A DNA stretch of 34,931 bases from Comamonadaceae bacterium (GTDB taxonomy: Bacteria; Pseudomonadota; Gammaproteobacteria; Burkholderiales; Burkholderiaceae_C): positions 1 through 34,931 of the forward strand of contig CANBTQ010000005.1 of NCBI GenBank assembly GCA_947372425.1, written 5' to 3'. The translations under genes were made by a program, and so were the position numbers. The notes under the pieces are model-generated. The model had not been told where the DNA came from. It searched no databases and was given only the letters and a program-made list of their open reading frames with translations. Positions 1 to 27,635 of this stretch are shown piece after piece (position 1 is the stretch's first letter; each line of letters opens with the position of its first letter).

Positions 1-693
1 ACCCATGGTGATGCACGGCGTGTCGCTCAATATTGGCGGCACCGATCCGCTGAACATGGACTACCTGCGCGACCTGAAAGAACTGGCGCACCGCGTGCAG
101 CCCGGCTGGGTGTCAGACCACCTGTGCTGGACGGGCATCAACGGCCTCAACATGCACGACCTGTTGCCCGTGCCTTACACCGAGGCCACGCTGCGCCACG
201 TGTGTGACCGCATCCAGCGTGTGCAAGATTTTATGGGGCGGCGCTTGGTCATAGAGAACCCGTCCAGTTATGTGGCATTCGCTGCTGATGAAATGCCCGA
301 GTGGGAATTCATCGCCGATATGCTGCGCCGTGCCGATTGCGAGCTGCTGCTGGACGTCAACAACGTCTATGTCAGCAGCGTCAACCACGGCTTCGACCCG
401 CAGCAGTACCTGGCCGCCATCCCGGCGGCGCGTGTGCGCCAGATTCACCTGGCCGGGCATGAGACCCACGACGGCTACCTGATTGACACCCACGACCACC
501 CGGTCTACGCGGCCGTGTGGCAGCTCTATGGCGACACCCTGCAGCACTGCGGCGCGGTGCCCACCATGATCGAGCGCGACGACAACATTCCCCCCTGCAC
601 GTGCTGCTCGATGAGCTGGACCAGGCCCGCGCGGTGCATGCCCGCGTGCTGGCGCCCGCCCCTGCACACGCCACCGACGAGTGCACCGCATGA
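1..693 (+). CDS. DUF692 (BufB/HvfB/MbnB-type) iron enzyme, 5' truncated and frameshifted
   Basis: This is the C-terminal ~230 residues of a DUF692 TIM-barrel enzyme. The family includes MbnB and the bufferin/HvfB enzymes, which use a multi-iron site to convert cysteines of a partner peptide into copper-binding heterocycles. Family motifs appear in order, numbered from the internal Met at base 5: [13 protein letters not shown] (H39), VIENPSSY (E84), [10 protein letters not shown] (D117, N119-120), IHLAGH (H148, H152), DTHDHPV (H163) and MIERDDNIP (E190, D192). The reading frame is open to the left edge, so the true start and ~50-60 residues lie outside the window. After ERDDNIPP the frame is wrong: the uncorrected frame gives Cys/Trp/Arg-rich residues and runs to 850, deep into the next gene. 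Adding one C to the run at 590-595 restores a family-like tail ([19 protein letters not shown]) ending at TGA 691-693, which overlaps the next ATG. Family call is firm; the frameshift is seen directly, but whether it is real or a sequencing error is unknown. Confidence 0.9.
590..595 (+). other. C-homopolymer frameshift site in the DUF692 gene
   Basis: There are six consecutive C residues here. Seven would keep the DUF692 reading frame (Ile-Pro-Pro-Leu-His-Val-Leu-Leu) and bring the stop to 691-693, in the ATGA overlap with the DUF2063 gene. With six, the protein loses its ~33-residue C-terminus for unrelated sequence. This could be a true deletion, phase variation by slipped-strand mispairing, or a homopolymer sequencing error. 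Confidence 0.85.
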
Positions 694-1481
694 TGCAGCT
701 GCACAGCTTGCAGAGCCAGTTTCAGGAGGCCCTGCTGACCGACCAGCCGGCGGAGCCGACACTGCTCAGCACACACGGCGTGGCACAGTTTGGCGTGTAC
801 CGCACCGCCTACCGGGCCCGCCTGCGCGCAGCGCTGCGCGACAACTTTGAAACCCTGGCGCGAGTCATGGGTGACGACGCGTTTGACGCGCTGGCCCATG
901 CCTACATTGCGCACCACCCATCACAGCACTATTCGCTGCGCTGGTTTGGCCACCGGCTGTGCGACTTCATGGCCGCCCATGCGGCGCTGGTGGATCACCC
1001 CGCGATGCTGGATCTGGCGCGCATGGAGTGGGCTTTGCGCCAGGCCTTTGACGCCGCAGCCGCTGTGCCACTGCACGCCGAAGCGCTGGCGGCCGTGCCG
1101 GCGGTCGACTGGGCCGCTTTGCAACTGCGCCTGCAGCCCTCGGTGCAATTGCTGGCGATGCAGTGGGCCGTGGGCCCCATCTGGCACGCACTGCAATCGG
1201 GGCAGCAGGACGACCTGGCACCACCCGAGGCCCTGGCGCACCACCTGCTGGTCTGGCGACTGGGCATGAACACGCAGTGGAAATCGCTGTCACCCACCGA
1301 GGCCGGCTTTGTGCAAGGCCTGCTGGCACAGCACCGCTTCGGCCAACTGTGTGAGTCGCTTGCGCAAGGCGTGGGCGAGGAACATGCTGCGGCCACGGCG
1401 GTCGCCCTGTTGGGCGACCTGCTGCAGGCGGGTGCACTGTGTGCGCTGTCTGACCCACCTCTTGCAACTTCAACATCCTGA
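690..1481 (+). CDS. DUF2063 (HvfC/BufC-type) partner protein
   Basis: This 263-residue protein has the HvfC/BufC N-terminal domain (DUF2063, sometimes labelled putative DNA-binding). The N-terminal ~95 residues show the family pattern: [20 protein letters not shown], then [20 protein letters not shown], a Tyr-Ser-Leu-rich turn, and F-G-x-x-L-C-D-F. In methanobactin and bufferin pathways the DUF2063 or MbnC-like protein forms a complex with the DUF692 enzyme and helps present the precursor peptide; that role is inferred from family and position. I chose ATG 690 because it overlaps the frame-corrected stop of the DUF692 gene (ATGA), as expected for translational coupling. A GTG at 681 and an ATG at 693 are in-frame alternatives. 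The remaining ~165 residues are Ala/Leu-rich helical sequence. The DoxX gene begins three bases after the stop. Confidence 0.87.
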
Positions 1482-4467: not shown

Positions 4468-7086
4468 TTACTTGGCCGTGATGGTGACCGGCACCAGCGC
4501 CTGCGCGCTCAGGCCGGCCGAATCGACCACCACCACCTTCAGGCTGTAGCTGCCCGTCACCGGGCTGGCCCACTGCGCCGTGAGGTTGGTGCCGCTGACC
4601 AGGAAGCCCATGCCCAGCGGCACACCCGAGATGGACACCGACAGCGAGGTCGCCGTCGCGTCGGCAATGGCGATGCTGCCGCTCAGCGGCTTGCCGGCCA
4701 CGCCGGTCATGGCCGCAGCGGTGATCACCGGGCCGGCCACTGCAATCTTCACGGCGTACACGCCTTGGCCGCTCAGGCCGGTCTTGCTGTCTTTGGCCAT
4801 CACCGTCACATTGAAGTTGCCCAGCACTGGCACAGGCCAACTCACCAGGCCGCTGCTGTTGATGGCCATGCCGGCCGGCGCACCGCTTAGGGTGTAGGTC
4901 ACCGGGTTGGGCGCCGTGACACTGGTCTGGAACGACAGGGCCACACCGGGCTTGCCGGCAATGCTGGCCGCACCCACCACCGGCGGCAGCGGGGCCGAGA
5001 TGGCGAGGCTGATCACGCCCTGGCCGCTCAGGCCGGTCTTGCTGTCCTTGGCGATCACCGTCACGTTGTAGCTACCGGCCACCGGGCTGGCCCAGCTGAG
5101 CACGCCGGCACTGCTGATGGCCAGGCCGGCGGGCGCGCCGCTCAGGCTGTAACTCACCGGATTGGCGGCCTTGACCGTGGTGCTGAAGGTCAGCGCCGTG
5201 CCCGCAGTGCCGCTGACGGCGGCCGCGCTCACCACCGGTGCCGCCTGCTGGGCAATGGTGATGCTGTAGCTGCCCTGGCCGCTGAGTGCAGTCTTGCTGT
5301 CCTTGGCAATCACCGTCACGCTGTAGCTGCCCAGCACCGGCGTGGGCCAGCTCACCACACCGGTGGCACTGACCACCATGCCGGCGGGCGCGCCGCTCAG
5401 GCTGTAGGTGACGGGATTGGGCGCAGACACCGAGACGGTAAAGGTCAGCGCCGTGCCCACGGTGCCGCTGATGGCGGCCGGCGTGACCACCGGTGCGGCC
5501 ACCGCGCCGGCGCCGCTCAGGGCATTCAACAGGCTGGTCACATTGGGTGTGCCCAGGCCGGTCAGGGGGTCGTAACCCACCTTGGCCGTGCACAGCGCGC
5601 AGCTGCCGTCGCTGCCCTGGGTGATGTCGGCAAACACGCTGGCGTAGGTGCCGGGCACGGTGGCAATCTGGCCATACAGCAGGGCATGCGGCGCACCCAG
5701 TGCCGGCTTGCCGGCCAGTGCGCGCGATGCGTTGGCAATGGCCAGCAGGCCGGCCCATTGCGGTGTGGACAGGCTGGTGCCGCCCACGCTAAGCCAGTTC
5801 ACCGTGCTGCTGCCGGGGGTTTGCACCGCCACATACTGGCCGGAGGCGGGGTCGGCGTTAAATGCCACATCGGCCACAGCGCGGTGCGGGACCGAGCCCA
5901 GGCCCGGTACGGCATTGGTCTGGTAGGCCGGTGTGGGGGTGTAGGCGCTGATGCCGCCACCGGTGCCGGACCAGCTGACCTCGCTGCGGCTGCCACTGCC
6001 GGAATAGCTCAGTGTGGTGCCGCCCACGGCCACCACATTGGGCGAGACCGAGGGCCAGGACACGGCCGCACCCGAATCGCCGGTGGCGGCTAGGTAGCTC
6101 ATGCCGGGGGCGGCAAAGGCCGCGTCCACCGACGCCGTCCAGTTGCCTTCGCTGGCGCCAAAGCTCATGGAGACAATGCCCGGGCCCATGGCGTTGGCCA
6201 GTTTGACGGCGCCCAGCAGGCTGTTGAGCGAGGCGTCTGCGGCCTCGATCAGCACGATGCGGGCCAGCGGCGCGGTGGCATGGGCCCATTGCACATCCAG
6301 CGTGATCTCGGTGGCCCAGCCGGCGTCATAGGCCGGGACGCTGGCCGACAGGCCGCCGGCAGCGGTGTTGTAGACCACCGAAAACTCGCAACCGCTCAGC
6401 GACGCCGCCGGCAGCGGCAGGCTGGAGGTGAGGCCAATGGCCTTGGTGCTGCACAGCGGCAGGCCGAACTTCTGGTTGAAGGCGGCCAGCTCGGCGGCGG
6501 CATTGGGGTCGTGCTGCGCATCGACGATGTAAATGGTCTGGCCGGCGCCCAGCTGGGCGGCCTGGGCCGCGGTCAGCAGGGTGCCGGCCGGTGGCAGTGC
6601 CGGCAGGCCGTAGGCAGCGCGGATTTGTGCCGGTGCATAGGTTGCCACGGCGGTGCTGGCAGCCAGCGGTGTGGCCGCGCCGTCTGCCGCCATCTGTGCC
6701 GCGCGCAGACCGCGCAGGCGGCGCGGCTGCTGCATGTCCTGCACCGTCAGGCGACGGGTGGACAGATCGCCCAGCTCCACGCTGAGCCGGTGCTGGTGTG
6801 GCGCACGGCCTGCCGAGGCATCGGGGTTGACGGCATCGGTGTCATCGGGTGCGGCCAGCAAGCCGGGTGCGGCATGGAAAAAGGGCTGGGCCATCTGCTG
6901 CGCCGCTGCCTCGGGCAGGGTGGCCAGGTTCATGGACAGGGTGGTGGTGCCGGTGGCCAGCGGGGCCGCCGGAGCCGACGCCACGCCATCGGAATGGCCG
7001 CCGCCGCAGGCCGACAACAGGGCGCTGGAAACCAGCAAGGCGCCGCACAGGCGTGGTGAACACAACAGACCGGGGAAATTTTTCAT
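4468..7086 (-). CDS. Secreted S53 (sedolisin/kumamolisin) protease lipoprotein with four Ig-like repeats
   Basis: This 872-residue protein starts with a lipoprotein-type signal: a hydrophobic segment ending in LLSAC, with C27 as the lipidation site, then GGGHSDG. A ~120-residue pro-region lacking obvious pro-kumamolisin landmarks precedes the S53 catalytic domain (about 145-525). The catalytic residues are visible: E260 and D264 (WATEITLDVQWAH), D337 (AATGDSGA) and S438 in VGGTSLSTP. The calcium site is D487 (FADITQG) with GYDPLTGLGTPN (504-515). Four Ig-like repeats follow at 531-615, 616-700, 701-784 and 785-872. S53 enzymes are serine-carboxyl endopeptidases, usually most active at acid pH. 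ATG 7086 is preferred over the in-frame codon 102 bases upstream because it begins directly before the signal peptide and has GGAG at 7097-7100. Expression is probably controlled by the c-di-GMP riboswitch in its leader. Confidence 0.9.
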   Translation of the reverse strand: MKNFPGLLCSPRLCGALLVSSALLSACGGGHSDGVASAPAAPLATGTTTLSMNLATLPEAAAQQMAQPFFHAAPGLLAAPDDTDAVNPDASAGRAPHQHRLSVELGDLSTRRLTVQDMQQPRRLRGLRAAQMAADGAATPLAASTAVATYAPAQIRAAYGLPALPPAGTLLTAAQAAQLGAGQTIYIVDAQHDPNAAAELAAFNQKFGLPLCSTKAIGLTSSLPLPAASLSGCEFSVVYNTAAGGLSASVPAYDAGWATEITLDVQWAHATAPLARIVLIEAADASLNSLLGAVKLANAMGPGIVSMSFGASEGNWTASVDAAFAAPGMSYLAATGDSGAAVSWPSVSPNVVAVGGTTLSYSGSGSRSEVSWSGTGGGISAYTPTPAYQTNAVPGLGSVPHRAVADVAFNADPASGQYVAVQTPGSSTVNWLSVGGTSLSTPQWAGLLAIANASRALAGKPALGAPHALLYGQIATVPGTYASVFADITQGSDGSCALCTAKVGYDPLTGLGTPNVTSLLNALSGAGAVAAPVVTPAAISGTVGTALTFTVSVSAPNPVTYSLSGAPAGMVVSATGVVSWPTPVLGSYSVTVIAKDSKTALSGQGSYSITIAQQAAPVVSAAAVSGTAGTALTFSTTVKAANPVSYSLSGAPAGLAISSAGVLSWASPVAGSYNVTVIAKDSKTGLSGQGVISLAISAPLPPVVGAASIAGKPGVALSFQTSVTAPNPVTYTLSGAPAGMAINSSGLVSWPVPVLGNFNVTVMAKDSKTGLSGQGVYAVKIAVAGPVITAAAMTGVAGKPLSGSIAIADATATSLSVSISGVPLGMGFLVSGTNLTAQWASPVTGSYSLKVVVVDSAGLSAQALVPVTITAK
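4471..5496 (-). repeat. Four tandem ~250-bp repeats encoding Ig-like domains
   Basis: The 3' third of the sedolisin gene is a tandem array of about 85 codons each: 5496-5242, 5241-4987, 4986-4735 and 4734-4471. The first three share P-V-T/S-Y-S/T-L-S-G-A-P-A-G and A-K-D-S-K-T-x-L-S-G-Q-G nearly unchanged, and the DNA is also close; the fourth has diverged. This fits recent duplication of a putative-Ig (He_PIG-like) module. Such arrays usually act as stalks or adhesive segments outside the cell. Confidence 0.88.
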
Positions 7087-7124
7087 GGCAGGCACGCTCC
7101 AAAAAGGGCGAGGGCCACGCGGAT

Positions 7125-7172
7125 CAATGGGTCGCTGGAATCGCGCCGGCCGTGAAGACCGTAAGCCCATTG
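7125..7172 (-). promoter_or_regulatory. Possible expression-platform helix of the riboswitch
   Basis: In the minus-strand transcript CAAUGGG (7172-7166), directly after the aptamer's closing strand, is perfectly complementary to CCCAUUG (7131-7125). The C at 7172 is also the last base of the UUGCC strand (7176-7172) that can close the aptamer with GGCAA (7245-7241), so the two helices abut and may compete. A second foldback around GGCC/GGCC can also form in this leader, and a U5 tract (7105-7101) precedes GGAG. I cannot tell whether c-di-GMP turns the gene on or off. Confidence 0.35.
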
Positions 7173-7250
7173 GCAACCCCGCTGCCATGTCGCTTGCGCG
7201 CTTTAGGCCGGAGGCTTTGCGTCACCGCTTTTCAACGGCTTTGCCCTCAG
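7166..7250 (-). promoter_or_regulatory. Cyclic-di-GMP-I (GEMM-I) riboswitch aptamer
   Basis: Read on the minus strand, the leader of the sedolisin gene reproduces the GEMM-I consensus step by step. GGGCAAAGCC (7246-7237) is followed by a hairpin CCGUU-GAAA-AGCGG with a GNRA tetraloop. The hallmark GACGCAAAGCC comes next (7223-7213), then UCCGGCCUAAA, a stem CGC-GCAA-GCG, and CAUGGCAGCGGGGUUGCC closing the aptamer (7189-7172). CCUAAA and CAUGG correspond to the receptor that docks the GAAA tetraloop. The order, spacing and conserved blocks closely match the well-studied Vibrio cholerae Vc2 aptamer. The start codon lies about 80 bases downstream. No RNA search was run, but the agreement is too extensive for chance. 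Confidence 0.94.
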
Positions 7251-7277
7251 ATTCCGCAACCGGCGGAACCGGGCCTG

Positions 7278-7306
7278 AGTATAGGCAAGCCGGCCCGGTC
7301 TGTAAA
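7278..7306 (-). promoter_or_regulatory. Sigma70 promoter of the riboswitch-sedolisin transcript
   Basis: On the minus strand TTTACA (-35, 7306-7301) and TATACT (-10, 7283-7278) are each one base from consensus and are separated by exactly 17 bases. Transcription should start near 7271, about 20 bases before the aptamer, as expected for a riboswitch leader. Confidence 0.72.
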
Positions 7307-7389
7307 GCCACGCGCGCGCGGCAACAGAAAGCTGCAATGGGGTACATGTACAGCCCACTGAATGGTATTCTCCCGCAACTGATTTCTGC

Positions 7390-7468
7390 AGGAGGATGGA
7401 TGCAAGCATTGACCGGCGTGGCCAGCGCAAGCTTGCCCCCTACCTGCGGGTTTGCCCCGCCATGGTAA
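7390..7468 (+). other. Possible leader peptide frame with strong Shine-Dalgarno
   Basis: AGGAGG (7390-7395) is followed four bases later by ATG 7400, which opens a 22-codon frame ending at TAA 7466-7468, seven bases before the GGDEF-EAL start. A second ATG at 7396 opens a 27-codon frame whose TGA (7477-7479) overlaps the ATG at 7476. The consensus ribosome site has no better-placed gene start, so a coupled leader peptide is possible. Short spacing and lack of homology keep confidence low. Confidence 0.22.
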
Positions 7469-7475
7469 GGCGCGC

Positions 7476-9104
7476 ATGAGCACACCCACGCTGGACCGGG
7501 TACTGGACGCCGTGCTGCGGGTCGAGTCCAACTTCGATGTACGCTTCATCTCCGAGCCCGGCCAGCGCTGGTTCACCAAGCCGCTGGGTGGCGCGTTGCC
7601 GCAGAATTTTCTGGCCATCCTGCACCCGGACGACGTGCCCGCGTTCCGGCAGGCGCTGGTGGCGGCGCACGATGGCTTCAGCTGCGACCTGCGCCTGCTG
7701 CGCGGCGGCACCGAATGCTGGATCAATCTGCGCAGCTACTCCCTGCCGGCCGCCCAGCAGTATGTTTTGTGCATCGTCGACATCTCCATGTGGAAGACCG
7801 AGGACTCGGCACTGCGCCATGCCGCCTTGCACGACGAGCTGACCGGCCTGCCCAACCGCGCCTTTCTGAAGAAGACGGTGGAGCAGTACATTGCCGAGGG
7901 CAAGGCGCCGTTTTCGGTGGCGCTGCTGGACCTGGACGGCTTCAAGAAAGTCAACGACACCTACGGCCACGCCATGGGTGACGCGGTGCTGGTGGAAACC
8001 ACCAAGCGCCTGAGCAAGCTGATCGGACCGGGCGACCTGATGGCGCGCCTGGGTGGCGATGAGTTTGTGCTGCTGTACGACGGCAAGAACGCACAGGGCG
8101 CACAGCAGGCGCTCAAGAACGTGCTGCTGGCCGTGGCGCGGCCCTACGAGACGGCACCGCACAACGCCTACCTGGGCGTGAGCATCGGCGTGGCGGAGTA
8201 CCCGCTGCACGGCGACGACTACTCGCTGCTGCTGAAGAACGCCGACACCGCGATGTACTACTCCAAGAACGCGGGCAAGAACCGGGTGACGGTGTTTGCG
8301 CTGACCGATGTGAATGTCGACTTCTCCATCAAGGCGGCCATCCACAACGGCATCCAGGAGGGTGAGTTCTTCATGGAGTACCAGCCCCAGTACGACATGC
8401 AGCGCACGATCATCGGCGCCGAGGCCCTGATGCGCTGGACCAACCGCGACCTCGGACGGGTCGGCCCCGACCAGTTCATCCCGATCGTGGAAGACGCCGG
8501 CCTGATGCCCTTTCTGGGCAAGTGGGCGTTGCGCTATTCCTGCCACCAGCTCAAGAAGTTCCATGCGCTGGCGCCGGATTTTGTGCTGTCGGTGAATGTG
8601 TCGCCGGTGCAGTTCGGCAGCGACCACTTTGATGACCAGGTGCTGGAGGTGATTGCCGAGACCGGCGTAGACCCCTCGCGGCTGATCCTGGAGATCACCG
8701 AATCCACCTTGATGGGCAGCCAGGAAAAAACCGAGCGCGCCCTGGCCCGTTTGCGCGAACAGGGCATCCGCTTTTCGATTGACGATTTCGGCACCGGCTT
8801 CTCCAGCCTGTCCTACCTGACCCGGCTGCCGGTCTCCAGCATCAAGATCGACAAGGCCTTTGTGGCCGCCATGGGCGAGGAGACGCCGGACCACACGCCG
8901 GACAAAAAACTGGTGAAGGCCATGATCAACCTGGCGCACAGCATTGACCTCAAGGTGGTGGCCGAAGGCGTGGAGACCGAGAGCCAGTTCGCCTTTTTGC
9001 AGGCCGCCGGCTGCAACCTGATACAGGGCTATCTGCTGGGCCGGCCCATGTCGGCAGCCGACCTGACACACCGCTTGCCCGCACCGAAAGAAGACGCCGC
9101 ATGA
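7476..9104 (+). CDS. PAS-GGDEF-EAL cyclic-di-GMP turnover protein
   Basis: This 542-residue cytoplasmic protein has an N-terminal PAS-like sensor (about 10-110), a GGDEF domain (about 112-278, motif GGDEF 193-197) and an EAL domain (about 285-530). The GGDEF signature is intact, so diguanylate cyclase or GTP-binding activity is possible. The inhibitory RxxD site is lost (G184 where Arg is expected, D187 kept). The EAL domain keeps the residues needed for c-di-GMP hydrolysis: E316 (EAL), N374, E406, D436-D437 (IDDFGTG), K457, E497 and Q517, so it is probably an active phosphodiesterase. ATG 7476 is preferred over an upstream TTG (7452); TAAGG lies just upstream. The stop overlaps the HDOD gene start (ATGA at 9101-9104). 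Confidence 0.92.
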   Translation: MSTPTLDRVLDAVLRVESNFDVRFISEPGQRWFTKPLGGALPQNFLAILHPDDVPAFRQALVAAHDGFSCDLRLLRGGTECWINLRSYSLPAAQQYVLCIVDISMWKTEDSALRHAALHDELTGLPNRAFLKKTVEQYIAEGKAPFSVALLDLDGFKKVNDTYGHAMGDAVLVETTKRLSKLIGPGDLMARLGGDEFVLLYDGKNAQGAQQALKNVLLAVARPYETAPHNAYLGVSIGVAEYPLHGDDYSLLLKNADTAMYYSKNAGKNRVTVFALTDVNVDFSIKAAIHNGIQEGEFFMEYQPQYDMQRTIIGAEALMRWTNRDLGRVGPDQFIPIVEDAGLMPFLGKWALRYSCHQLKKFHALAPDFVLSVNVSPVQFGSDHFDDQVLEVIAETGVDPSRLILEITESTLMGSQEKTERALARLREQGIRFSIDDFGTGFSSLSYLTRLPVSSIKIDKAFVAAMGEETPDHTPDKKLVKAMINLAHSIDLKVVAEGVETESQFAFLQAAGCNLIQGYLLGRPMSAADLTHRLPAPKEDAA

Positions 9105-15247: not shown

Positions 15248-18145
15248 ATGTCCGATACGCAAACTGCTGCCACCGAGGACGGTAACGCCGCCCGGGTGAA
15301 GCTTGTCCCCTGCGACGAACATTACCGCGCCTTGTTTGTGCACTCGCGGGTGCCCATGCTGCTGATTGAACCCGCCGACGGCGCCATCGTGCGGGCCAAC
15401 GAAGCGGCCAGTTCTTTTTACGGCTACAGCGTGGACACGCTGCAGCAGATGCAAATTCAACAGATCAACCCCATGGAGCCCGAAGCCCGTGTGCTGGCCC
15501 TGCGCGAGGCCCATTCCGGCGAACGCACGCATTTCCAGTTTGTGCACCGTCTGGCCGATGGCCGCAGTGTGCCGGTGGAGGTGCATTCCGGCCCTGTGGT
15601 GCTGGAAGGGCGCACCCTGCTGTATTCCATCATCCACGACATCAGTGACCGGGCGGATGCCCGGTCCAGTGCCGAGGCTGCGTACAAGCTGCTGGAAGAT
15701 ATGGCCGCGCATGTGCCGGGTGTGATCTTCCAGTTTCGCATGGCGGCCGACGGTGGCATGAGCTTTCCGTATGCCAGCCTGGGCATGGAGACCATGTTCG
15801 AGGTCAGCGCAGAGCAGGCCGCAGCCGACGCCGGCGCGGTGTTGGCCAAGGTGCATCCGGACGATCTGGCGCGTGTGATGGCATCGATACACACCTCGGC
15901 GGCCCAGCTCACGCCCTGGACCTGCGAATACCGGGTGCAGCTGGAACGCCAGGGCGAGCGCTGGCGCAGCGGCGTGTCCAGCCCGCAGCGCATGGCCGAC
16001 GGCAGCACGCTGTGGCATGGCTTTGCCAGCGACATCACCGAGCACAAGGAGGCCGAGAAAACGCAGATCGCGTTCAACCGCGACTTCGGCTCCTTCCTCG
16101 ACAAGACCAGCGACTTTGTCTACTTCAAGAACCGCGAGGGCCGTATCCGCTTTTGCAGCCAGTCGCTGGCCGCACTGTTCGGCTACAACGACTGGCGCGA
16201 ACTGACAGGCCGGCGCGATCGGGATCTGTTTCCCGCCGAGTCCATGGAGTCCTATGTGCAGGAAGAGGCCGCGGTCTTTGCCACAGGGCTGCCGCTGCTC
16301 AACCGCATCAACAATTACCGCAGACGGGACGGCTTGCCGGCCTTCGTGCAGACCAGCCGCTGGCCGCTGTTCAACGAACAGGGCGAGGTGGAAAGCATTT
16401 TCGGCATAGGCCGCGACGTTACCGAAAGCCGCCAGGTGCAGGCTGGCATCCAGCTCGCAGCCAATGTGTTCACCCATGCGCGCGAGGGCATTGCCATCAC
16501 CGACCCGCAGGGCACCATCATCGACGTCAACGACGCCTTTTGCCGCATCACCGGCTACAGCCGCGAAGAGATCATTGGCGCCAACCCGCGCATCCTCAAC
16601 TCCGGCCGGCAGGACGCCGAGTTCTACAACACCATGTGGAAGGCGATTGCCGACACCGGCCACTGGTCGGGCGAGCTCTGGAACCGGCGCAAGAACGGCG
16701 AGATCTATGCCGAAATCCTCACCATCAGCGCGGTGCGCGATACCGAGCAGCAGGTGAAGAACTATGTGGCGCTGTTCACCGACATCACGCCGATGAAGGA
16801 GCACCAGGACCAGCTCGAACACATCGCCCATTTCGACATGCTCACCGGCCTGCCCAACCGGCTGCTGTTTGCCGACCGCCTGGGCCAGGCCATGCGCATG
16901 AGCGAGCGGCGCAAGCGCTCACTGAGTGTGATCTATCTGGACCTGGACGGCTTCAAGGCAGTCAATGACAAATATGGCCACGACACCGGCGACGCGCTGC
17001 TGGTGGTGCTGTCGCAACGCATGAAGCTGGCACTGCGCGAGGGTGACTCGCTGGCGCGCTTTGGCGGGGACGAGTTTGTGGCGGTGCTGGTCGATCTGGA
17101 AGACCCGCACGACTGTGTGCCGGTGCTGGAACGCCTGCTGACTGCCGCGGCCGATCCGGTGCCCCTGAACTTTAACGGCGAGCCGATTGCGCTGCGCGTA
17201 TCGGCCAGCATAGGCGCCACCATCTACCCCAAGGACGGTGCCGATGCCGACCTGCTGATGCGCCATGCGGACCAGGCCATGTACCTGGCCAAGCAGGCCG
17301 GCAAGAACCGCTACCACCTGTTTGATGTGGCCCACGACACCGCCGTCAAGCAGCAGCGCGAGTGGCTGGAGCAACTACGGCACGCACTGGTCAATGGTGA
17401 GTTCGTGCTGTTTTACCAGCCCAAGGTGGACATGCAGAGCGGCCGGGTGGTAGGCGCCGAGGCACTGATACGCTGGCAGCACCCGCAGCGCGGCCTGCTG
17501 CTGCCGGGCGAGTTTTTGCCCAGCATCGAAAGCCACGAACTCAGTGTGCTTGTGGGTGAATGGGTGATTGAGGCGGCCGTGGCGCAGATGGCGGTCTGGC
17601 AACAGGCCGGCATTCTGGTGCCGGTGAGCGTCAATGTGGGTGCGCTGCAACTGCAGCAAGCTGATTTTGTGGAACGCCTGCTGGCCATCCTGGCACGTTA
17701 CCCGTCGGTGGCGCACCAGCACCTGGAGCTCGAGATTCTGGAGAGCAGCGCACTCAAGGACATCACCGTGGTGGCCCAGGTGCTGCATGCCTGCAATGCC
17801 CAGGACCTGCGCATTGCGCTGGACGATTTCGGCACCGGCTACTCCTCGTTGACCTATCTGAAGCACCTGCCCGCCGGCACCCTCAAGATTGACCAGAGCT
17901 TTGTACGCGACATGGTGGCCGACCCCGAAGACATGGCCATCGTGCACGGCGTGATCGGGCTGGCCCACGCCTTTGGCCGCAAGGTGATTGCCGAGGGTGT
18001 GGAGACGGCGGAGCAAAGCGCGCTGCTGCAGTCGCTGGACTGCCACTGCATGCAGGGCTTTGGCATCGCCCGGCCGATGCCGGCCCTGCTGTTGCCCGAC
18101 TGGATTACCGCATGGCAGGCCCACCCCGGCGTGCTTGCCGCTTGA
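15248..18145 (+). CDS. Multi-PAS GGDEF-EAL cyclic-di-GMP protein
   Basis: This 965-residue soluble protein has four PAS-type modules (about 20-135, 145-268, 276-398 and 400-520), then GGDEF (about 522-690) and EAL (about 700-955). The GGDEF motif is intact (606-610) and has an I-site RxxD (R597-E-G-D600) for product inhibition. The EAL domain has E738, N796, the E829 region (ELEILE), D859-D860 (LDDFGTG), K880 and AEGVE, so both activities look possible. Such hybrids often act mainly as phosphodiesterases with the GGDEF half as GTP-activated regulator. No transmembrane segment is visible, so signals must be intracellular (redox, gas or small ligands via PAS). ATG 15248 follows a GGGAAAG stretch. 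The DUF2946 gene begins 10 bases later. Confidence 0.95.
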   Translation: MSDTQTAATEDGNAARVKLVPCDEHYRALFVHSRVPMLLIEPADGAIVRANEAASSFYGYSVDTLQQMQIQQINPMEPEARVLALREAHSGERTHFQFVHRLADGRSVPVEVHSGPVVLEGRTLLYSIIHDISDRADARSSAEAAYKLLEDMAAHVPGVIFQFRMAADGGMSFPYASLGMETMFEVSAEQAAADAGAVLAKVHPDDLARVMASIHTSAAQLTPWTCEYRVQLERQGERWRSGVSSPQRMADGSTLWHGFASDITEHKEAEKTQIAFNRDFGSFLDKTSDFVYFKNREGRIRFCSQSLAALFGYNDWRELTGRRDRDLFPAESMESYVQEEAAVFATGLPLLNRINNYRRRDGLPAFVQTSRWPLFNEQGEVESIFGIGRDVTESRQVQAGIQLAANVFTHAREGIAITDPQGTIIDVNDAFCRITGYSREEIIGANPRILNSGRQDAEFYNTMWKAIADTGHWSGELWNRRKNGEIYAEILTISAVRDTEQQVKNYVALFTDITPMKEHQDQLEHIAHFDMLTGLPNRLLFADRLGQAMRMSERRKRSLSVIYLDLDGFKAVNDKYGHDTGDALLVVLSQRMKLALREGDSLARFGGDEFVAVLVDLEDPHDCVPVLERLLTAAADPVPLNFNGEPIALRVSASIGATIYPKDGADADLLMRHADQAMYLAKQAGKNRYHLFDVAHDTAVKQQREWLEQLRHALVNGEFVLFYQPKVDMQSGRVVGAEALIRWQHPQRGLLLPGEFLPSIESHELSVLVGEWVIEAAVAQMAVWQQAGILVPVSVNVGALQLQQADFVERLLAILARYPSVAHQHLELEILESSALKDITVVAQVLHACNAQDLRIALDDFGTGYSSLTYLKHLPAGTLKIDQSFVRDMVADPEDMAIVHGVIGLAHAFGRKVIAEGVETAEQSALLQSLDCHCMQGFGIARPMPALLLPDWITAWQAHPGVLAA

Positions 18146-20410: not shown

Positions 20411-22981
20411 ATGAACGATCTGGACGATGCCGCGCTCAGCGGCGGCACCTACAAAGTTCTCTACCAGATTGCCGAGCGCGCCACCTCGGGCGAATCGCTG
20501 TTTGCGTTTTCAAAGGCCTTGCATGAATTGCTGGCCGAGCTGATGCCGGTGCGCAACCTCTACCTGTGCCTGCTCAACACCAGCGAAAACGGGCTGAACT
20601 TCCCCTACTACGTGGACGAACGTGACGGCGATTCGATGCAGGAAGTCAATGTGCCGATCCGCCGCGGCCTGACCGAATACGTGCTGCGCACCGCAACATC
20701 CCAGCTGATTGACCAGGCCCGCTATGCAGACCTGCAGGCCAGCGGGGACATCACCGAGGCCACCGGCGACCTGAGCTTTTGCAGCTGGCTGGGTGTGCCC
20801 CTGCAGATCCGCGGCAAGACCGCCGGCGTGCTGACCGTGCAAAGCTACCACCCCGCCGTGCAATACGGCCCGGCCGAAGCACAGCTGCTGGCCTTTGTGG
20901 CACGGCACGTGAGTTCGGCGATTGAGCGCAAGCAGTCCTTTGATGCGCTGAAGGCGGCCCACGCGGAGCTGGAGAAAGAAACCCGGCAGCGGCGCCAGAG
21001 CGAAACCATGTACCGGGTGTTCTACCAGCTCGCCGCCAGCGCCAGTGAGGGCGACAGCCTGCACACGTTTTCGGCCAAGGTGCATGAGCTGGTGGGGCAG
21101 CTGATGGTGGCACCCAACTGCTATGTCTGCCTGTGCGACACCACCAACCGGCTCAAGCACTTTCCCTATTACGTGGACGAACGCGACGGCGACTCGCTGC
21201 AGCTGCAGAACGTGCCGATGCGCCTGGGCCTGACCGAGTTTGTGGTCAGCACCGGCGTGCCGCAGCGCATCGACCAGGCACGCCTGGCGCAGCTGCAGCG
21301 CGACGGTCTGGTGACGCAGGCCCAGGGTGACCTGAGCTTTACCGGCTGGCTCGGTGTGCCGCTGCGCATACGCGGTACGGTGGACGGCGTGCTGGCGGTG
21401 CAAAGCTATAGCGACCATGTGGTCTACACCGAAGCCGACGCGCTCACACTGGCCCATGTGGCCCACCATGTCAGCGGAGCGATTGAACGCAAGCAGGCCT
21501 TTGAGGCCATGCACCAGTCGGAGGAGCGCTACCGCAATGTGGTGGAGCAGGTGGGCCAGGGCATGGTGGTGCTGCGGGGCCAGGACGTGCTGTATGCCAA
21601 CAGCCGCGCCTGCAGCATGCTGCAGGCCTCCAGCCAGGTGCTGGCCGCGCAGGGCTGGACCGGGCGTATGCAGGCCCCCGACCGCGAACACCTGCTGGCC
21701 GAGTTTGCCGGCGGCGGCCCCGGCCCCGACGGTGAGTCCACGCGTGAGATCCCGCTCACGCTGGACGATGGCAGCCAGCGCTGGATCGAGATGGGCGCCA
21801 CCCGGGTGCAATGGGACGGCGAGCCCTCCACGCTGGCCTTTTTGTCGGACATCACGCCGCGCAAGCAGCTGGAGCTGGCGCTGCGCCGCACCTCGTTTGA
21901 ACGCGAGGCCATGCTCAACACCGCGCTGGTGGGTATCAGCTTCAATGTGCGCGGACGCATTGTCTGGGTCAATGAGAAATGCGCCGAGATGGCCGGCATG
22001 ACGCGCGAGGCGCTGATAGGCCAGTCACCGCAGATTTTTTACAGCCATGCCGACGACTACGAGGCCGAGAAGCTGCGCTCCGATGCGGCCCTGAGCCAGA
22101 CCGGCGTGTACAGCGCCGAGCGCCGCACCCACCGCGCCAATGGCGAAAGTTTCTGGGTCCTGTTGTCGGGGCGCTGCGTGGAACGCGGCGACCCCGATGC
22201 CGGCGTGATCTGGACCCTGCTGGATGTAACCGAGCGGCGCCAGGCCGAGGACGACATCCGCCAGACCCTGGAGCGCCAGCGCGAACTCAATGTGCTGCGC
22301 TCGCGCTTTGTGGCCATGACCAGCCATGAGTTCCGCACCCCGCTGGCCGCCATTTTTTCTTCCGCCGAATTGCTGCGCCATTACGAGGAACGGCTGCCGG
22401 CCGGGGAGCGGCGCGAACTGCTGCAGTCGATTGAGTCGGCCGTGCGGCGCATGGAGCAGATGCTCAACCGCATCCTGCTGATCGGCCGGGCCGAGGCCGA
22501 GATGCTGGAGTTTGCGCCCCGGCCGTGTGACCTCAAGGCCCTGTGCGAACGCTTTGTGCGCGAGGCCCGTCAGCAGCATCCGCAGGCGCGCAGCGCAATC
22601 GAACTGGTTTGGGAACTGGCGCCGGGCACGGTGCTGTGCGACGAGAAACTGCTCAGCCACATGTTCGGCAACCTGCTGTCGAATGCGCTGAAGTATTCGC
22701 CCGCCGGCGGGCCGGTGCGCTTTGCGGTCAGCCGCCGCGCGGACAGGCTGTGCTTTTGTGTGCAGGACGAGGGCATAGGCATTCCGGAGAACGAACAGGC
22801 CGACATGTTTGACTCGTTCCACCGTGCCAGCAATGTGGGCGACATCGAAGGCACCGGCCTTGGCTTGTCGATCGTGAAGAAGTCGGTGGAACTGCATGGC
22901 GGCACGATCACGGTGCAAAGCCGTGCCGGCGCCGGCACGCAGTTCTGCATTCTGCTGCCACAGGAGGAGCACAGCGCATGA
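20411..22981 (+). CDS. GAF-GAF-PAS-PAS sensor histidine kinase
   Basis: This 856-residue soluble kinase has two tandem GAF domains (about 12-175 and 199-362), which are clear duplicates (both have FPYYVDERDGDS, a G-L-T-E-Y/F segment and A-I-E-R-K-Q). Two PAS domains follow (about 370-485 and 495-612), then HisKA with H639 (FVAMTSHEFRTPLAAI) and HATPase with N-box GNLLSNALKYSP, G1 box DEGIGI and G2 box GTGLGLSIVKKS. All kinase residues look intact, and no transmembrane segment is seen. The stop overlaps the downstream REC-GGDEF-EAL gene by four bases, making that protein the likely phosphorylation target. The start at 20411 gives an immediate GAF domain. Confidence 0.93.
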   Translation: MNDLDDAALSGGTYKVLYQIAERATSGESLFAFSKALHELLAELMPVRNLYLCLLNTSENGLNFPYYVDERDGDSMQEVNVPIRRGLTEYVLRTATSQLIDQARYADLQASGDITEATGDLSFCSWLGVPLQIRGKTAGVLTVQSYHPAVQYGPAEAQLLAFVARHVSSAIERKQSFDALKAAHAELEKETRQRRQSETMYRVFYQLAASASEGDSLHTFSAKVHELVGQLMVAPNCYVCLCDTTNRLKHFPYYVDERDGDSLQLQNVPMRLGLTEFVVSTGVPQRIDQARLAQLQRDGLVTQAQGDLSFTGWLGVPLRIRGTVDGVLAVQSYSDHVVYTEADALTLAHVAHHVSGAIERKQAFEAMHQSEERYRNVVEQVGQGMVVLRGQDVLYANSRACSMLQASSQVLAAQGWTGRMQAPDREHLLAEFAGGGPGPDGESTREIPLTLDDGSQRWIEMGATRVQWDGEPSTLAFLSDITPRKQLELALRRTSFEREAMLNTALVGISFNVRGRIVWVNEKCAEMAGMTREALIGQSPQIFYSHADDYEAEKLRSDAALSQTGVYSAERRTHRANGESFWVLLSGRCVERGDPDAGVIWTLLDVTERRQAEDDIRQTLERQRELNVLRSRFVAMTSHEFRTPLAAIFSSAELLRHYEERLPAGERRELLQSIESAVRRMEQMLNRILLIGRAEAEMLEFAPRPCDLKALCERFVREARQQHPQARSAIELVWELAPGTVLCDEKLLSHMFGNLLSNALKYSPAGGPVRFAVSRRADRLCFCVQDEGIGIPENEQADMFDSFHRASNVGDIEGTGLGLSIVKKSVELHGGTITVQSRAGAGTQFCILLPQEEHSA

Positions 22982-24702
22982 GTTACCGCATCGTGATTGC
23001 CGAGGACGACCCCGACATCCGCTCCAACCTGGCACGCCTGCTGCGGCTGGAGCAGTACGAGGTGTGGGCGGCGGAGAACGGCGAAGAGGCGCTGGCCCTG
23101 GTGCGCCAGCACATGCCGGACCTGGTGCTGTCGGACGTGATGATGCCGCGCATGACCGGCCACGCGCTGCTGCAGGCGCTGCGCGCCGATGCCAGCACCG
23201 CCCACATCCCCGCCATCCTGCTGACGGCACGGGCCGAGCACAGCGACCGGCGCGAGGGCATGAACCTGGGCGCCGACGATTACCTGGTCAAACCCTTCAA
23301 GCGCGAGGAACTGCTGGACGCGGTGCGCTCGCGGCTGGAGCGCGTGTCCCTGCAGCAACGGGCGCACCAGCGCCTGCGCGAGCAGGCCCAGCACCTGGTG
23401 CACTTTGACGCGCTGACCCAGTTGCCCAACCGCGCCCGCATGCTCGAGCGCTGCGCCGACGCCCTGCAGCATGGTGCGGCCAGCGGTGCGCCGGTGGCGC
23501 TGGCCGTGATCGGTCTGGACGGCCTGCGCCAGATCAACCAGACGCTGGGCCACGCCGGTGGCGACGCCGTGATTTGCAGCATCGCGCAGCGGCTGGAGAC
23601 GCTGTTGCAGAGTGGGGGCGGCGCGCGCGGCTTTGATGCCATCGGACGCTTGTCGGGGCAGCAGTTTGCCCTGCTGCTGGAGGGCTTTGCCGACACCGCC
23701 GTGCTGCAGCGCTTTCTGGACCGGATCTGCAGCACGCTGGCCCTGCCCTGCCAGGCCCAGGGCTGCGAGGTGTTTGTGGAAGCCCGCATCGGCGTGGCCG
23801 TGGGCACGCCGCAGGCACTGGCGACCGACCTGCTGCGCCAGGCCGAGGTGGCGCTGGACCAGACGCGCGAGGACGGTGCCGGCCCGGTGGCTTTTTTCAG
23901 CGCCGCCAGCGACTCGCGCGTGCTGCGCCGCATGCAGCTGCACAGCGCCCTGCACAAGGCGCTGGAGCGCCACGAACTCAGCCTGCACTACCAGGCCCAG
24001 GTGGAGATTGCGACGCGGCGCATCGTCGGCTTTGAGGCCCTGATGCGCTGGCAAAGCCCCGAGCTGGGTACGGTGTCACCGTCCGAATTCATTCCGGTGG
24101 CCGAGGACAGCGGCCTGATCCTCAGCATGGGGCGCTGGGCGCTGGACGAGGCCTGCCGGCAGTCGCGTGCCTGGCAGGATGCCGGCCTGCGCCCGGTGCG
24201 CATGGCCGTCAATTTATCAACCCGCCAGTTTGACGATGCCCACATCCTGGCCGATGTGGAGGACGTGATGCAGCGCCACGGCATCGCCGCCGGGCTGCTG
24301 GAGCTGGAGATTACCGAGAGCGTGGCCCTGAACGGCCTGGAGCGCACGCTGGGCACGCTGGCGGCCTTCAAGCAACGCGGACTGGCACTGTCGATTGATG
24401 ACTTCGGCACCGGCTACTCGTCGCTGTCCTACCTGAAGCGTTTTCCGGTGGACGCGCTCAAGGTGGACCAGAGCTTTGTGCGCAACATCGACACCGATGA
24501 CGGCGACGCCGCCATCACCCGCGCCGTGGTGGCGCTGGCGCACAGCTTCGGGCTGAGTGTGATTGCCGAGGGTGTGGAGACGCCCGCGCAGCTGGCCTAT
24601 CTGTCGGCGCTGGGCTGCGAGCTGGCCCAGGGCTATCTGTTCAGCCGGCCCGTGCCGGCCGAACAGGCGGGCACCCTGCTGCTGCAGGGGCTGGCACCTT
24701 AG
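22978..24702 (+). CDS. Response regulator with REC, degenerate GGDEF and EAL domains
   Basis: This 574-residue regulator has a receiver domain (1-120) with E9-D10-D11, phosphoacceptor D53 (LSDVMMPRMTG) and K105. The GGDEF-like domain (about 140-310) carries SGQQF (226-230) in place of GGDEF, so it cannot be an ordinary diguanylate cyclase. The EAL domain (about 318-570) keeps E353 (EALMRW), N412 (VNLST), an ExTE segment, IDDFGTG, K in LKVDQSF and AEGVE, so phosphodiesterase activity is predicted, probably switched by phosphorylation from the overlapping kinase gene. The stop overlaps the stop of the convergent gene at 24699. Confidence 0.93.
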   Translation: MSYRIVIAEDDPDIRSNLARLLRLEQYEVWAAENGEEALALVRQHMPDLVLSDVMMPRMTGHALLQALRADASTAHIPAILLTARAEHSDRREGMNLGADDYLVKPFKREELLDAVRSRLERVSLQQRAHQRLREQAQHLVHFDALTQLPNRARMLERCADALQHGAASGAPVALAVIGLDGLRQINQTLGHAGGDAVICSIAQRLETLLQSGGGARGFDAIGRLSGQQFALLLEGFADTAVLQRFLDRICSTLALPCQAQGCEVFVEARIGVAVGTPQALATDLLRQAEVALDQTREDGAGPVAFFSAASDSRVLRRMQLHSALHKALERHELSLHYQAQVEIATRRIVGFEALMRWQSPELGTVSPSEFIPVAEDSGLILSMGRWALDEACRQSRAWQDAGLRPVRMAVNLSTRQFDDAHILADVEDVMQRHGIAAGLLELEITESVALNGLERTLGTLAAFKQRGLALSIDDFGTGYSSLSYLKRFPVDALKVDQSFVRNIDTDDGDAAITRAVVALAHSFGLSVIAEGVETPAQLAYLSALGCELAQGYLFSRPVPAEQAGTLLLQGLAP

Positions 24703-26569: not shown

Positions 26570-26609
26570 CGTGCGGTGGCCTCGGGTGGGGTAAAGTCAG
26601 GTGGTGTCC

Positions 26610-27635
26610 ATGCTCCATACACCCCACCTTCTTGATCAGCTGGTCAGCCTGACCGGCATCCGCGACCTGGAGCTGCTGGAAGCCAGCCTGCTCAAGACAC
26701 TGGAGGGCTTCATCCACCCCACCGGCCTGTCGCTGTACAAGGTTTCCAACCGGGGCGAGATGCGCTCCCAGCTGGTGTTTGGCGCTGAACGCTGTGTGGT
26801 GGTGCGGGAAAACTTTGACGTTCGTCCCGAGCTGCTGCAGGCCTTCCGGCAGCACCAGAACGGCGACAAGGCCACGCTGCAGATCAGCGTGCCCGATGGC
26901 GTGCTGTCGGTCATGACCGTGATGGAGTCGCGCGCCAACACCACCTACCTGGTGATCAGCAACGCAAGCGCCTTGCGTGAGCTCGACAGCCACCTGATAG
27001 ACGGCATGCTGCAGATTTACCGCAACTTCTGCCTGCTGCTGCAGGAGTCACAGACCGACGCGCTCACCGGCCTGGCCAATCGCAAGACCTTTGACGAATG
27101 CTTCAGCCGGGTCTACGAGCTGCAACCCTTTGAAGACGATAGCTGCGCCGTTGCCGTGGAGCAGCGCAAGCCGCACGCCAAGGCCACGTTCTGGCTGTCC
27201 ATGGTCGACATCGACCACTTCAAATCGGTCAACGACCGCTTTGGCCATCTCTATGGTGACGAAGTGCTGATTCTGCTGGCCAACCTGCTCAAGGGCGCGC
27301 TGCGCAACGACGACCTGGTGTTCCGCTTCGGTGGCGAGGAGTTTGTGCTGATGATCCGCTGCGAGGGGCGCGACGAGGCCGCCGGCCTGCTGGAGCGGCT
27401 GCGGCGTTCGGTGGAGTCGCAGGAGATTCCGCAGGTCGGCCGGGTCACCATCAGCCTGGGGGCCACCGAGATGGTGCGCAATACCTTTGCCGGCACGCTG
27501 CTGGACTACGCGGACAAGGCGCTTTACTACAGCAAGCAGAACGGCCGCAACCGCCTGACCTTTTTTGAAGACATGGTGAGTGCCGGGCTGGTGGAGCGCG
27601 AAGCCGCGCCCGACGAAAACCTGGACTTTTTCTAA
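26610..27635 (+). CDS. GGDEF diguanylate cyclase
   Basis: This 341-residue soluble protein has an N-terminal GAF-like sensory region (about 8-140) and a C-terminal GGDEF domain (about 145-325). The active-site motif is the functional variant GGEEF (241-245), and the RxxD inhibitory site is present (R232-N-D-D235). Metal- and GTP-binding residues are in VDIDHFKSVNDRFGH. There is no EAL domain, so this is the only dedicated cyclase in the window. ATG 26610 has a weak CAGGTGG upstream; GTG 26601 or 26604 would add two or three residues. An insert of ~20 residues (about 172-192) separates the first two GGDEF elements. Confidence 0.92.
   Translation: MLHTPHLLDQLVSLTGIRDLELLEASLLKTLEGFIHPTGLSLYKVSNRGEMRSQLVFGAERCVVVRENFDVRPELLQAFRQHQNGDKATLQISVPDGVLSVMTVMESRANTTYLVISNASALRELDSHLIDGMLQIYRNFCLLLQESQTDALTGLANRKTFDECFSRVYELQPFEDDSCAVAVEQRKPHAKATFWLSMVDIDHFKSVNDRFGHLYGDEVLILLANLLKGALRNDDLVFRFGGEEFVLMIRCEGRDEAAGLLERLRRSVESQEIPQVGRVTISLGATEMVRNTFAGTLLDYADKALYYSKQNGRNRLTFFEDMVSAGLVEREAAPDENLDFF

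Follow-up and report, generated by a model that had tools for sequence, protein, structure and literature searches.

A conserved c-di-GMP-I aptamer ahead of S53 protease genes in Burkholderiales and its predicted translational switch

The window, a 34,931-nucleotide stretch of a Comamonadaceae genome, has been described in a preliminary way as carrying a c-di-GMP-I (GEMM-I) riboswitch on its minus strand, in the leader of a gene for a surface or secreted S53 protease with Ig-like repeats. This raises the question of whether the RNA and the protease belong together beyond this one locus and, if they do, in which direction c-di-GMP would switch the gene.

The aptamer and the protease behind it

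We used a covariance-model scan (cmscan, Rfam 15), the check that the preliminary description had proposed, to locate the aptamer. RF01051 (c-di-GMP-I) matched the minus strand at 7255-7169 over model positions 1-87 of 87 with 78.5 bits (E of 5e-14, computed over the whole window), against a gathering cutoff of 35 bits, and was the sole family at or above its own cutoff across the whole window. A permissive scan of 6800-7700 returned three further families, every one far under its cutoff. The riboswitch, its strand and a score above the family threshold are thereby borne out, as are the conserved blocks: the GAAA loop and GACGCAAAGCC are present and the remainder aligns over the full model length. 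The locus had also been placed correctly, but the ends originally given (7166-7250) lie 3-5 bases from those of Rfam. As judged from its sequence, the window aptamer is an ordinary member of the class, and the RNA would be expected to bind c-di-GMP. The G at aptamer position 11, equivalent to G20 of Vc2, is invariant in the 48 leaders aligned below; PMC9262584 treats this position as a factor in c-di-GMP/cGAMP selectivity and as no hard filter. The features of the leader and the gene are as follows.

7278-7306, minus strand: sigma-70-like promoter, TTTACA-17-TATACT (10 of 12 consensus matches; consensus match only)
7169-7255, minus strand: c-di-GMP-I (GEMM-I) riboswitch aptamer (RF01051, 78.5 bits, full length)
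4468-7086, minus strand: 872-aa S53 (sedolisin/kumamolisin-like) predicted lipoprotein (searches, fold, invariant residues)
5512-6651, minus strand: S53 catalytic domain, about residues 146-525 (profile search, AlphaFold2 model, Foldseek)
4477-5493, minus strand: C-terminal Ig/cadherin-like repeats of ~85 aa each (fold matches; 255-base repeat at 4759-5501)

The promoter-like pair stands 22 bases before the aptamer, and such pairs number one in 701 bases against a shuffle mean of 0.2. We also rejected 7188, within the aptamer, as the start codon. The reading frame is open at this position, but inspection of G031a/L087 by eye shows an in-frame stop between its aptamer and the shared ATG; the lipoprotein start comes after the ATG at 7086. 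The host assembly, which is 77% complete, holds two copies of GEMM-I, the other being on a separate contig (G000:C9:12448-12539, minus strand) before a 150-aa frame without a Pfam match; the MKQTKP..GRAF start of that frame is also seen in frames behind GEMM-I in G033 and G007.

The protein is an S53 protease, as had been proposed. Searches of the PDB matched TPP1 (1.1e-15) and sedolisin (about 1e-9) with phmmer, a profile of 52 sequences including the window's own matched kumamolisin-As (5.4e-30), and the AlphaFold2 model (mean pLDDT 80.8, pTM 0.61) was matched by Foldseek to kumamolisin-As and sedolisin with TM scores, by target length, of 0.72 and 0.70. E260, D264, D337 and S438, which from motif alignments we take to be the S53 catalytic positions, lie within motifs aligned to S53 structures and are unchanged in 52/52 proteins. 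The catalytic domain was recognised by neither Pfam nor NCBIfam. The protein shares with sedolisin, kumamolisin and TPP1 a profile and fold match and the invariant E, D, D and S of the motifs, but differs in having a lipoprotein-like start, an Ig-like tail and no prodomain found by Pfam, residues 60-135 showing some structure in the model. Cadherin and Ig chains, which match the tail, make up the majority of the top 50 Foldseek rows, and no Pfam cadherin or Ig match to the tail reaches its cutoff; the Ig-like repeats therefore hold as a predicted fold and a 255-base repeat, but not as an above-cutoff Pfam match. A lipobox, LSAC at 24-27, is followed by GGG, and Cys27 is unchanged in 52/52. A start of this kind makes attachment likelier than free secretion, so that the protein is probably membrane- or surface-bound, and of the original "surface or secreted" we favour the former.

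Spread of the aptamer-protease pairing

A protein-only scan of a species-genome collection found 204 relatives, the best 80 of which were kept and the 124 more distant left out. The query was an alignment of the window protein and four orthologues, those picked for sitting behind an aptamer, and aptamers were detected with a covariance model of 30 aptamers that included 5 belonging to S53 leaders. An aptamer lies upstream in 72 of these best 80 of 204 loci; with this model 71 of the 72 score at least 71 bits, and a degraded copy, in L162, scores 39.9. Two of the four query orthologues, L087 and L155, are among the 80, and without both the count is 70/78. The Rfam model, run on 15 loci, confirmed 12 of the 13 marked as having an aptamer, missing L162 (below cutoff), and found none in the two unmarked.

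Within Rhodoferax, 19/103 genomes have a match at 1e-30, and an aptamer is present at 12 of the 19 main loci; five of these are query proteins, so that among the new loci the count is 7/14. The seven Rhodoferax loci that lack an aptamer are more distant, and their open frames span 543-706 codons. When 399 genomes were sampled evenly across the order, 9 had a match at 1e-40, some of which may duplicate species already counted. One is the window's own; the aptamer is present in each of 4 close relatives and absent from 4 distant ones. The link between aptamer and S53 gene is conserved, and the pairing first described from a single locus is supported well beyond it, by 72/80 loci and by 4/4 close relatives in the 399-genome sample.

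Eight of the 80 loci have no aptamer. Contig ends truncate two of them (L091 and L135), and six are Oxalobacteraceae (L125, L129, L139, L144, L149 and L153). In a tree of 84 proteins, built by a quick method with L153 left out and with 32 of its 81 inner branches open, the five remaining Oxalobacteraceae form one clade (support 100) within the switch-bearing rows, which would most simply reflect one loss. Six short paralogues that lack the switch, represented by partial sequences on long branches, fall in or beside switch-bearing rows, so that the whole tree needs three changes. The six Oxalobacteraceae loci also share a short promoter-like stretch resembling TGTGCGATAATTTCC before the start, which by eye differs by one or two bases among them.

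These exceptions bear on whether the aptamer is a relic, in a leader that is constitutive or controlled by a protein and for which c-di-GMP is no longer relevant. The retention of the platform beside the degraded aptamer of L162 and the absence of the aptamer from the six Oxalobacteraceae loci would suit such a history, but the 78.5 bits of the window aptamer and the unchanged G11, G12 and C83 throughout the 48 aligned leaders argue against it, and we regard it as very improbable.

Another way to view the locus is through its neighbours. Four proteins with GGDEF and/or EAL domains are encoded within ~20 kb on the plus strand (7476-9104, 15248-18145, 22978-24702 and 26601-27635); in the response-regulator one among them, no GGDEF motif was found by pattern. 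The GGDEF-EAL gene at 7476-9104, which is divergent from the riboswitch gene, might have formed a local c-di-GMP circuit with it. As a conserved feature this was rejected, because flanks of up to 3.5 kb contain a relative at 1e-10 in only 3/80 loci.

The expression platform and the direction of switching

To compare leaders, the 73 available (the window's and 72 others) were reduced to 52 at below 88% similarity. Linker length ranges from 51 to 143 nt, and the alignment holds 48 leaders, L133, L137, L157 and L159 (linkers of 129-143 nt) being left out. Three helices recur in it, and in the window they involve the following elements.

7166-7172, minus strand: CAATGGG, 5' arm of a bridging helix, at the aptamer 3' end and overlapping its last four bases (covariation)
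7125-7131, minus strand: CCCATTG, 3' arm of the bridging helix (six pairs)
7243-7248, minus strand: GAGGGC, aptamer 5' strand including the selectivity G (7245), one side of a competing (anti-aptamer) helix
7110-7115, minus strand: GCCCTC, complementary to GAGGGC (7243-7248) and overlapping the closing hairpin
7084-7119, minus strand: closing hairpin, with arms CGTGGC (7114-7119) with GCCATG (7084-7089, start codon) and CGCCC with GG-A-GCG (within 7095-7110, Shine-Dalgarno)
7097-7100, minus strand: Shine-Dalgarno GGAG (GGAG in 66/73 leaders)

The helices of this platform are conserved. Over the 48 leaders the bridging helix (CAAUG..CAUUG) is paired in 89.7% of 233 cells, with a gap in 55 of 288, compared to 24-54% for slid controls. 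It has 45 double-change cells and a covariation of 0.386, a value as high as which was reached by 0/500 shuffles and which compares with 0.05-0.13 for slid versions. Its interior varies in length and sequence. The competing helix GAGGGC:GCCCUC is 95.8% paired (slid controls 35-63%) and the closing hairpin 81.3% (slid controls 25-46%), with the slid versions being a lenient control for both, because their columns are strongly conserved. Both switching helices show modest covariation. Only 3 double-change cells are found in the competing helix, a number that 7/500 shuffles reach; the closing hairpin has 12, matched by 51/500 column shuffles, its covariation score being matched by 67/500. Compensatory pairs in the competing helix are GAAGGC/GCCUUC (L128, L165), GUAGCC/GGCUAU (L092, L131) and aptamer GUGA with UCAU (L097, L099). 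Its duplex energy has a median of -13.2 vs -9.6 for shuffled platforms; it exceeds 95% of shuffles in only 26/52 leaders. In L105, L111, L132, L137, L155 (R. bucti) and L159 the helix is weak, with a duplex above -9 kcal/mol.

The competing helix and the closing hairpin share alignment columns 175, 176 and 180 and are therefore mutually exclusive, from which a translational OFF switch is predicted. The bridging helix can coexist with either one, and at any linker length it would hold the strands of the competing helix near each other. In the absence of c-di-GMP, the bridging helix would pack away the variable linker and bring GAGGGC of the aptamer together with GCCCUC just upstream of the ribosome-binding site; their pairing would disrupt the hairpin over the Shine-Dalgarno and AUG, and the protease would be made. 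With c-di-GMP bound, GAGGGC would be kept in the aptamer and GCCCUC freed to the closing hairpin, turning translation off.

We used folding calculations to examine this model. For 41 of the 52 leaders, the start codon had a median openness of 0.12 in the occupied state, against 0.65 when the competing helix was forced; 30 of the 41 moved up by more than 0.1 and 6 down (p=1.2e-6). The Shine-Dalgarno shifted from 0.25 to 0.28 in these leaders (16 up, 4 down, p=6e-4). Forcing the competing helix partly builds in the answer, and the result is biased toward the model because the 11 leaders left out were those with a weak duplex (7) or no clear Shine-Dalgarno (4). Over all 52 leaders, Shine-Dalgarno openness was higher by more than 0.1 in 21 and lower in 6. 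Unconstrained folding leaves the site closed, with Shine-Dalgarno medians over the 52 leaders of 0.25 free, 0.25 occupied and 0.26 with the competing helix. In the occupied state, native platforms conceal the AUG beyond their own shuffle mean in 33/48 leaders (p=9e-5). In the window itself, going from the occupied state to the competing helix raised Shine-Dalgarno openness from 0.01 to 0.30 and that of the AUG from 0.34 to 0.63. For the window alone, 25% of shuffles conceal the AUG equally well, the stability of the leader does not exceed that of its shuffles (z 0.48), and in the occupied-state fold the Shine-Dalgarno is shut by pairs other than those of the closing hairpin.

The opposite sign has precedents. 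In such a scheme c-di-GMP would open the ribosome-binding site and sessile cells would make the protease, for instance to capture nutrients in biofilms or on particles. Closely related aptamers of the class work in both signs (PMC9262584), and Cdi-1-1 of C. difficile is reported to be the sole class I switch that raises its gene at high c-di-GMP (PMC6200980). The closed ligand-free ensemble found here also speaks for such an ON switch. However, ligand binding would release the very strand that closes the start codon, and 30/41 leaders shift OFF-ward with 6 opposite. We consider an ON switch unlikely.

Regulation might instead act on transcription, with the ligand directing a terminator ahead of the gene instead of concealing where translation starts. 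A run of U5 stands immediately before the window Shine-Dalgarno, and Cd1 of C. difficile is a transcriptional OFF switch (PMC9262584), but a pattern search of 6900-7600 found no terminator-like site, four U within the 14 bases before the Shine-Dalgarno occur in only 14/52 leaders, and a conserved hairpin covers the Shine-Dalgarno and AUG. Termination is thus a quite doubtful explanation. The reading that we favour, and hold to be likely, is that a surface S53 protease is under translational control by a canonical c-di-GMP-I riboswitch, most probably of the OFF type; OFF is likelier than ON because of the exclusive helices and the modelled change at the start codon. We infer the direction of switching, for which modelling makes OFF likelier, and the physiological role alike. 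With an OFF switch the protease would appear as c-di-GMP drops, plausibly for release of surface proteins or matrix, or for feeding, when leaving the sessile state. Biofilm dispersal or nutrient scavenging, as originally suggested, is a guess, and being off at high c-di-GMP fits dispersal.

Related circuits and other GEMM-I leaders

The riboswitch type is already known; what is new is the wide pairing of aptamer and S53 gene and the shared platform. Like Vc2 and Cd1 in RF01051, the window aptamer is full length and retains the GAAA loop and the ligand-selectivity G, but here the target is an S53 lipoprotein, and the translational platform common to the leaders includes a bridging helix that covaries. 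The literature searched showed neither this target nor this platform. In a riboswitch-centred search that covered few subscription papers, none of the matches listed describes, by its title or the start of its abstract, a c-di-GMP riboswitch on an S53 protease; PMC9144310 combines the words S53, riboswitch and c-di-GMP, and the part of it seen has an unrelated subject.

The closest circuit is Cdi-1-12/zmpI of C. difficile. Its transcript is strongly down at high c-di-GMP (PMC6200980), and ZmpI (PPEP-1) cleaves two surface proteins close to the points where they are anchored in the wall (PMC6366702). Both systems place a class I c-di-GMP switch on the gene for an exported protease, lower at high c-di-GMP in the case of ZmpI. 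However, ZmpI is a zinc metalloprotease of a Firmicute, whereas here a Burkholderiales S53 serine-carboxyl peptidase stands behind a platform that hides the start site; the proteases are unrelated, with the same logic in another family. A broader proposal, whose chances seem to us evenly balanced, is that a ~170-nt riboswitch module conserved across Burkholderiales is dedicated to one family of surface S53 proteases and switches these on as c-di-GMP drops. It would be a Gram-negative counterpart of the PPEP-1 circuit, of independent evolutionary origin, in which the second messenger governs surface proteolysis by means of RNA alone, with no protein receptor. A conserved c-di-GMP switch gives these S53 lipoproteins a testable role, that of surface proteolysis linked to leaving the sessile state. 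A scan of 20 further proteins encoded behind GEMM-I in relatives (each the longest frame within 700 bases) identified 4 S8 subtilases, so exported proteases may recur as a target of the class outside Clostridioides. The GEMM-I leaders ahead of S8 subtilases are those of L038, L040, L048 and L074, and one of these proteins has a tail with Pfam Ig-like domains.

A closely similar GEMM-I leader, consisting of a promoter-like stretch, the aptamer and often a small hairpin, also precedes unrelated genes, and its copy number in a single genome reaches five (G119). It was seen at L053, L206-L209, L211-L225 and other loci, with G011, G021, G024, G035, G086, G092, G111, G114, G119, G120, G121 and G125 as genomes of the same genus. 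Tandem copies lie 0.8-2.1 kb apart in L206-L209, the second copy of L209 being degraded. At one and the same chromosomal position the leader persists but its downstream gene is exchanged, and the sites adjoin genes that by eye are argA-like (L214, L222, L224), dusA-like (L223, L225) and uvrA-like (L207, L208, L217). Candidate anti-phage cargo includes both PD-T4-2 proteins (L225), a PDC-S20 KAP NTPase (L053) and PDC-S31/DUF2971 (L221, L223); PADLOC matched 5/9 hand-picked cargo proteins and gave none for 4/9. These leaders look like c-di-GMP-switched, exchangeable defence cassettes.

A tandem GEMM-I pair with a different leader, 3.2 kb apart, occurs in L210 (G082:C79), each aptamer preceding a large protein (924-974 aa) of exported look. 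DUF1631 genes stand behind GEMM-I in three other families of the order (L033, L045, L065). At the far end of the window, 5-1481 (plus strand) encodes a RiPP-modifying enzyme of MbnB/TglH/ChrH type, apparently cut by the window edge, which adjoins a DUF2063 protein; this region is perhaps a small peptide-product locus.
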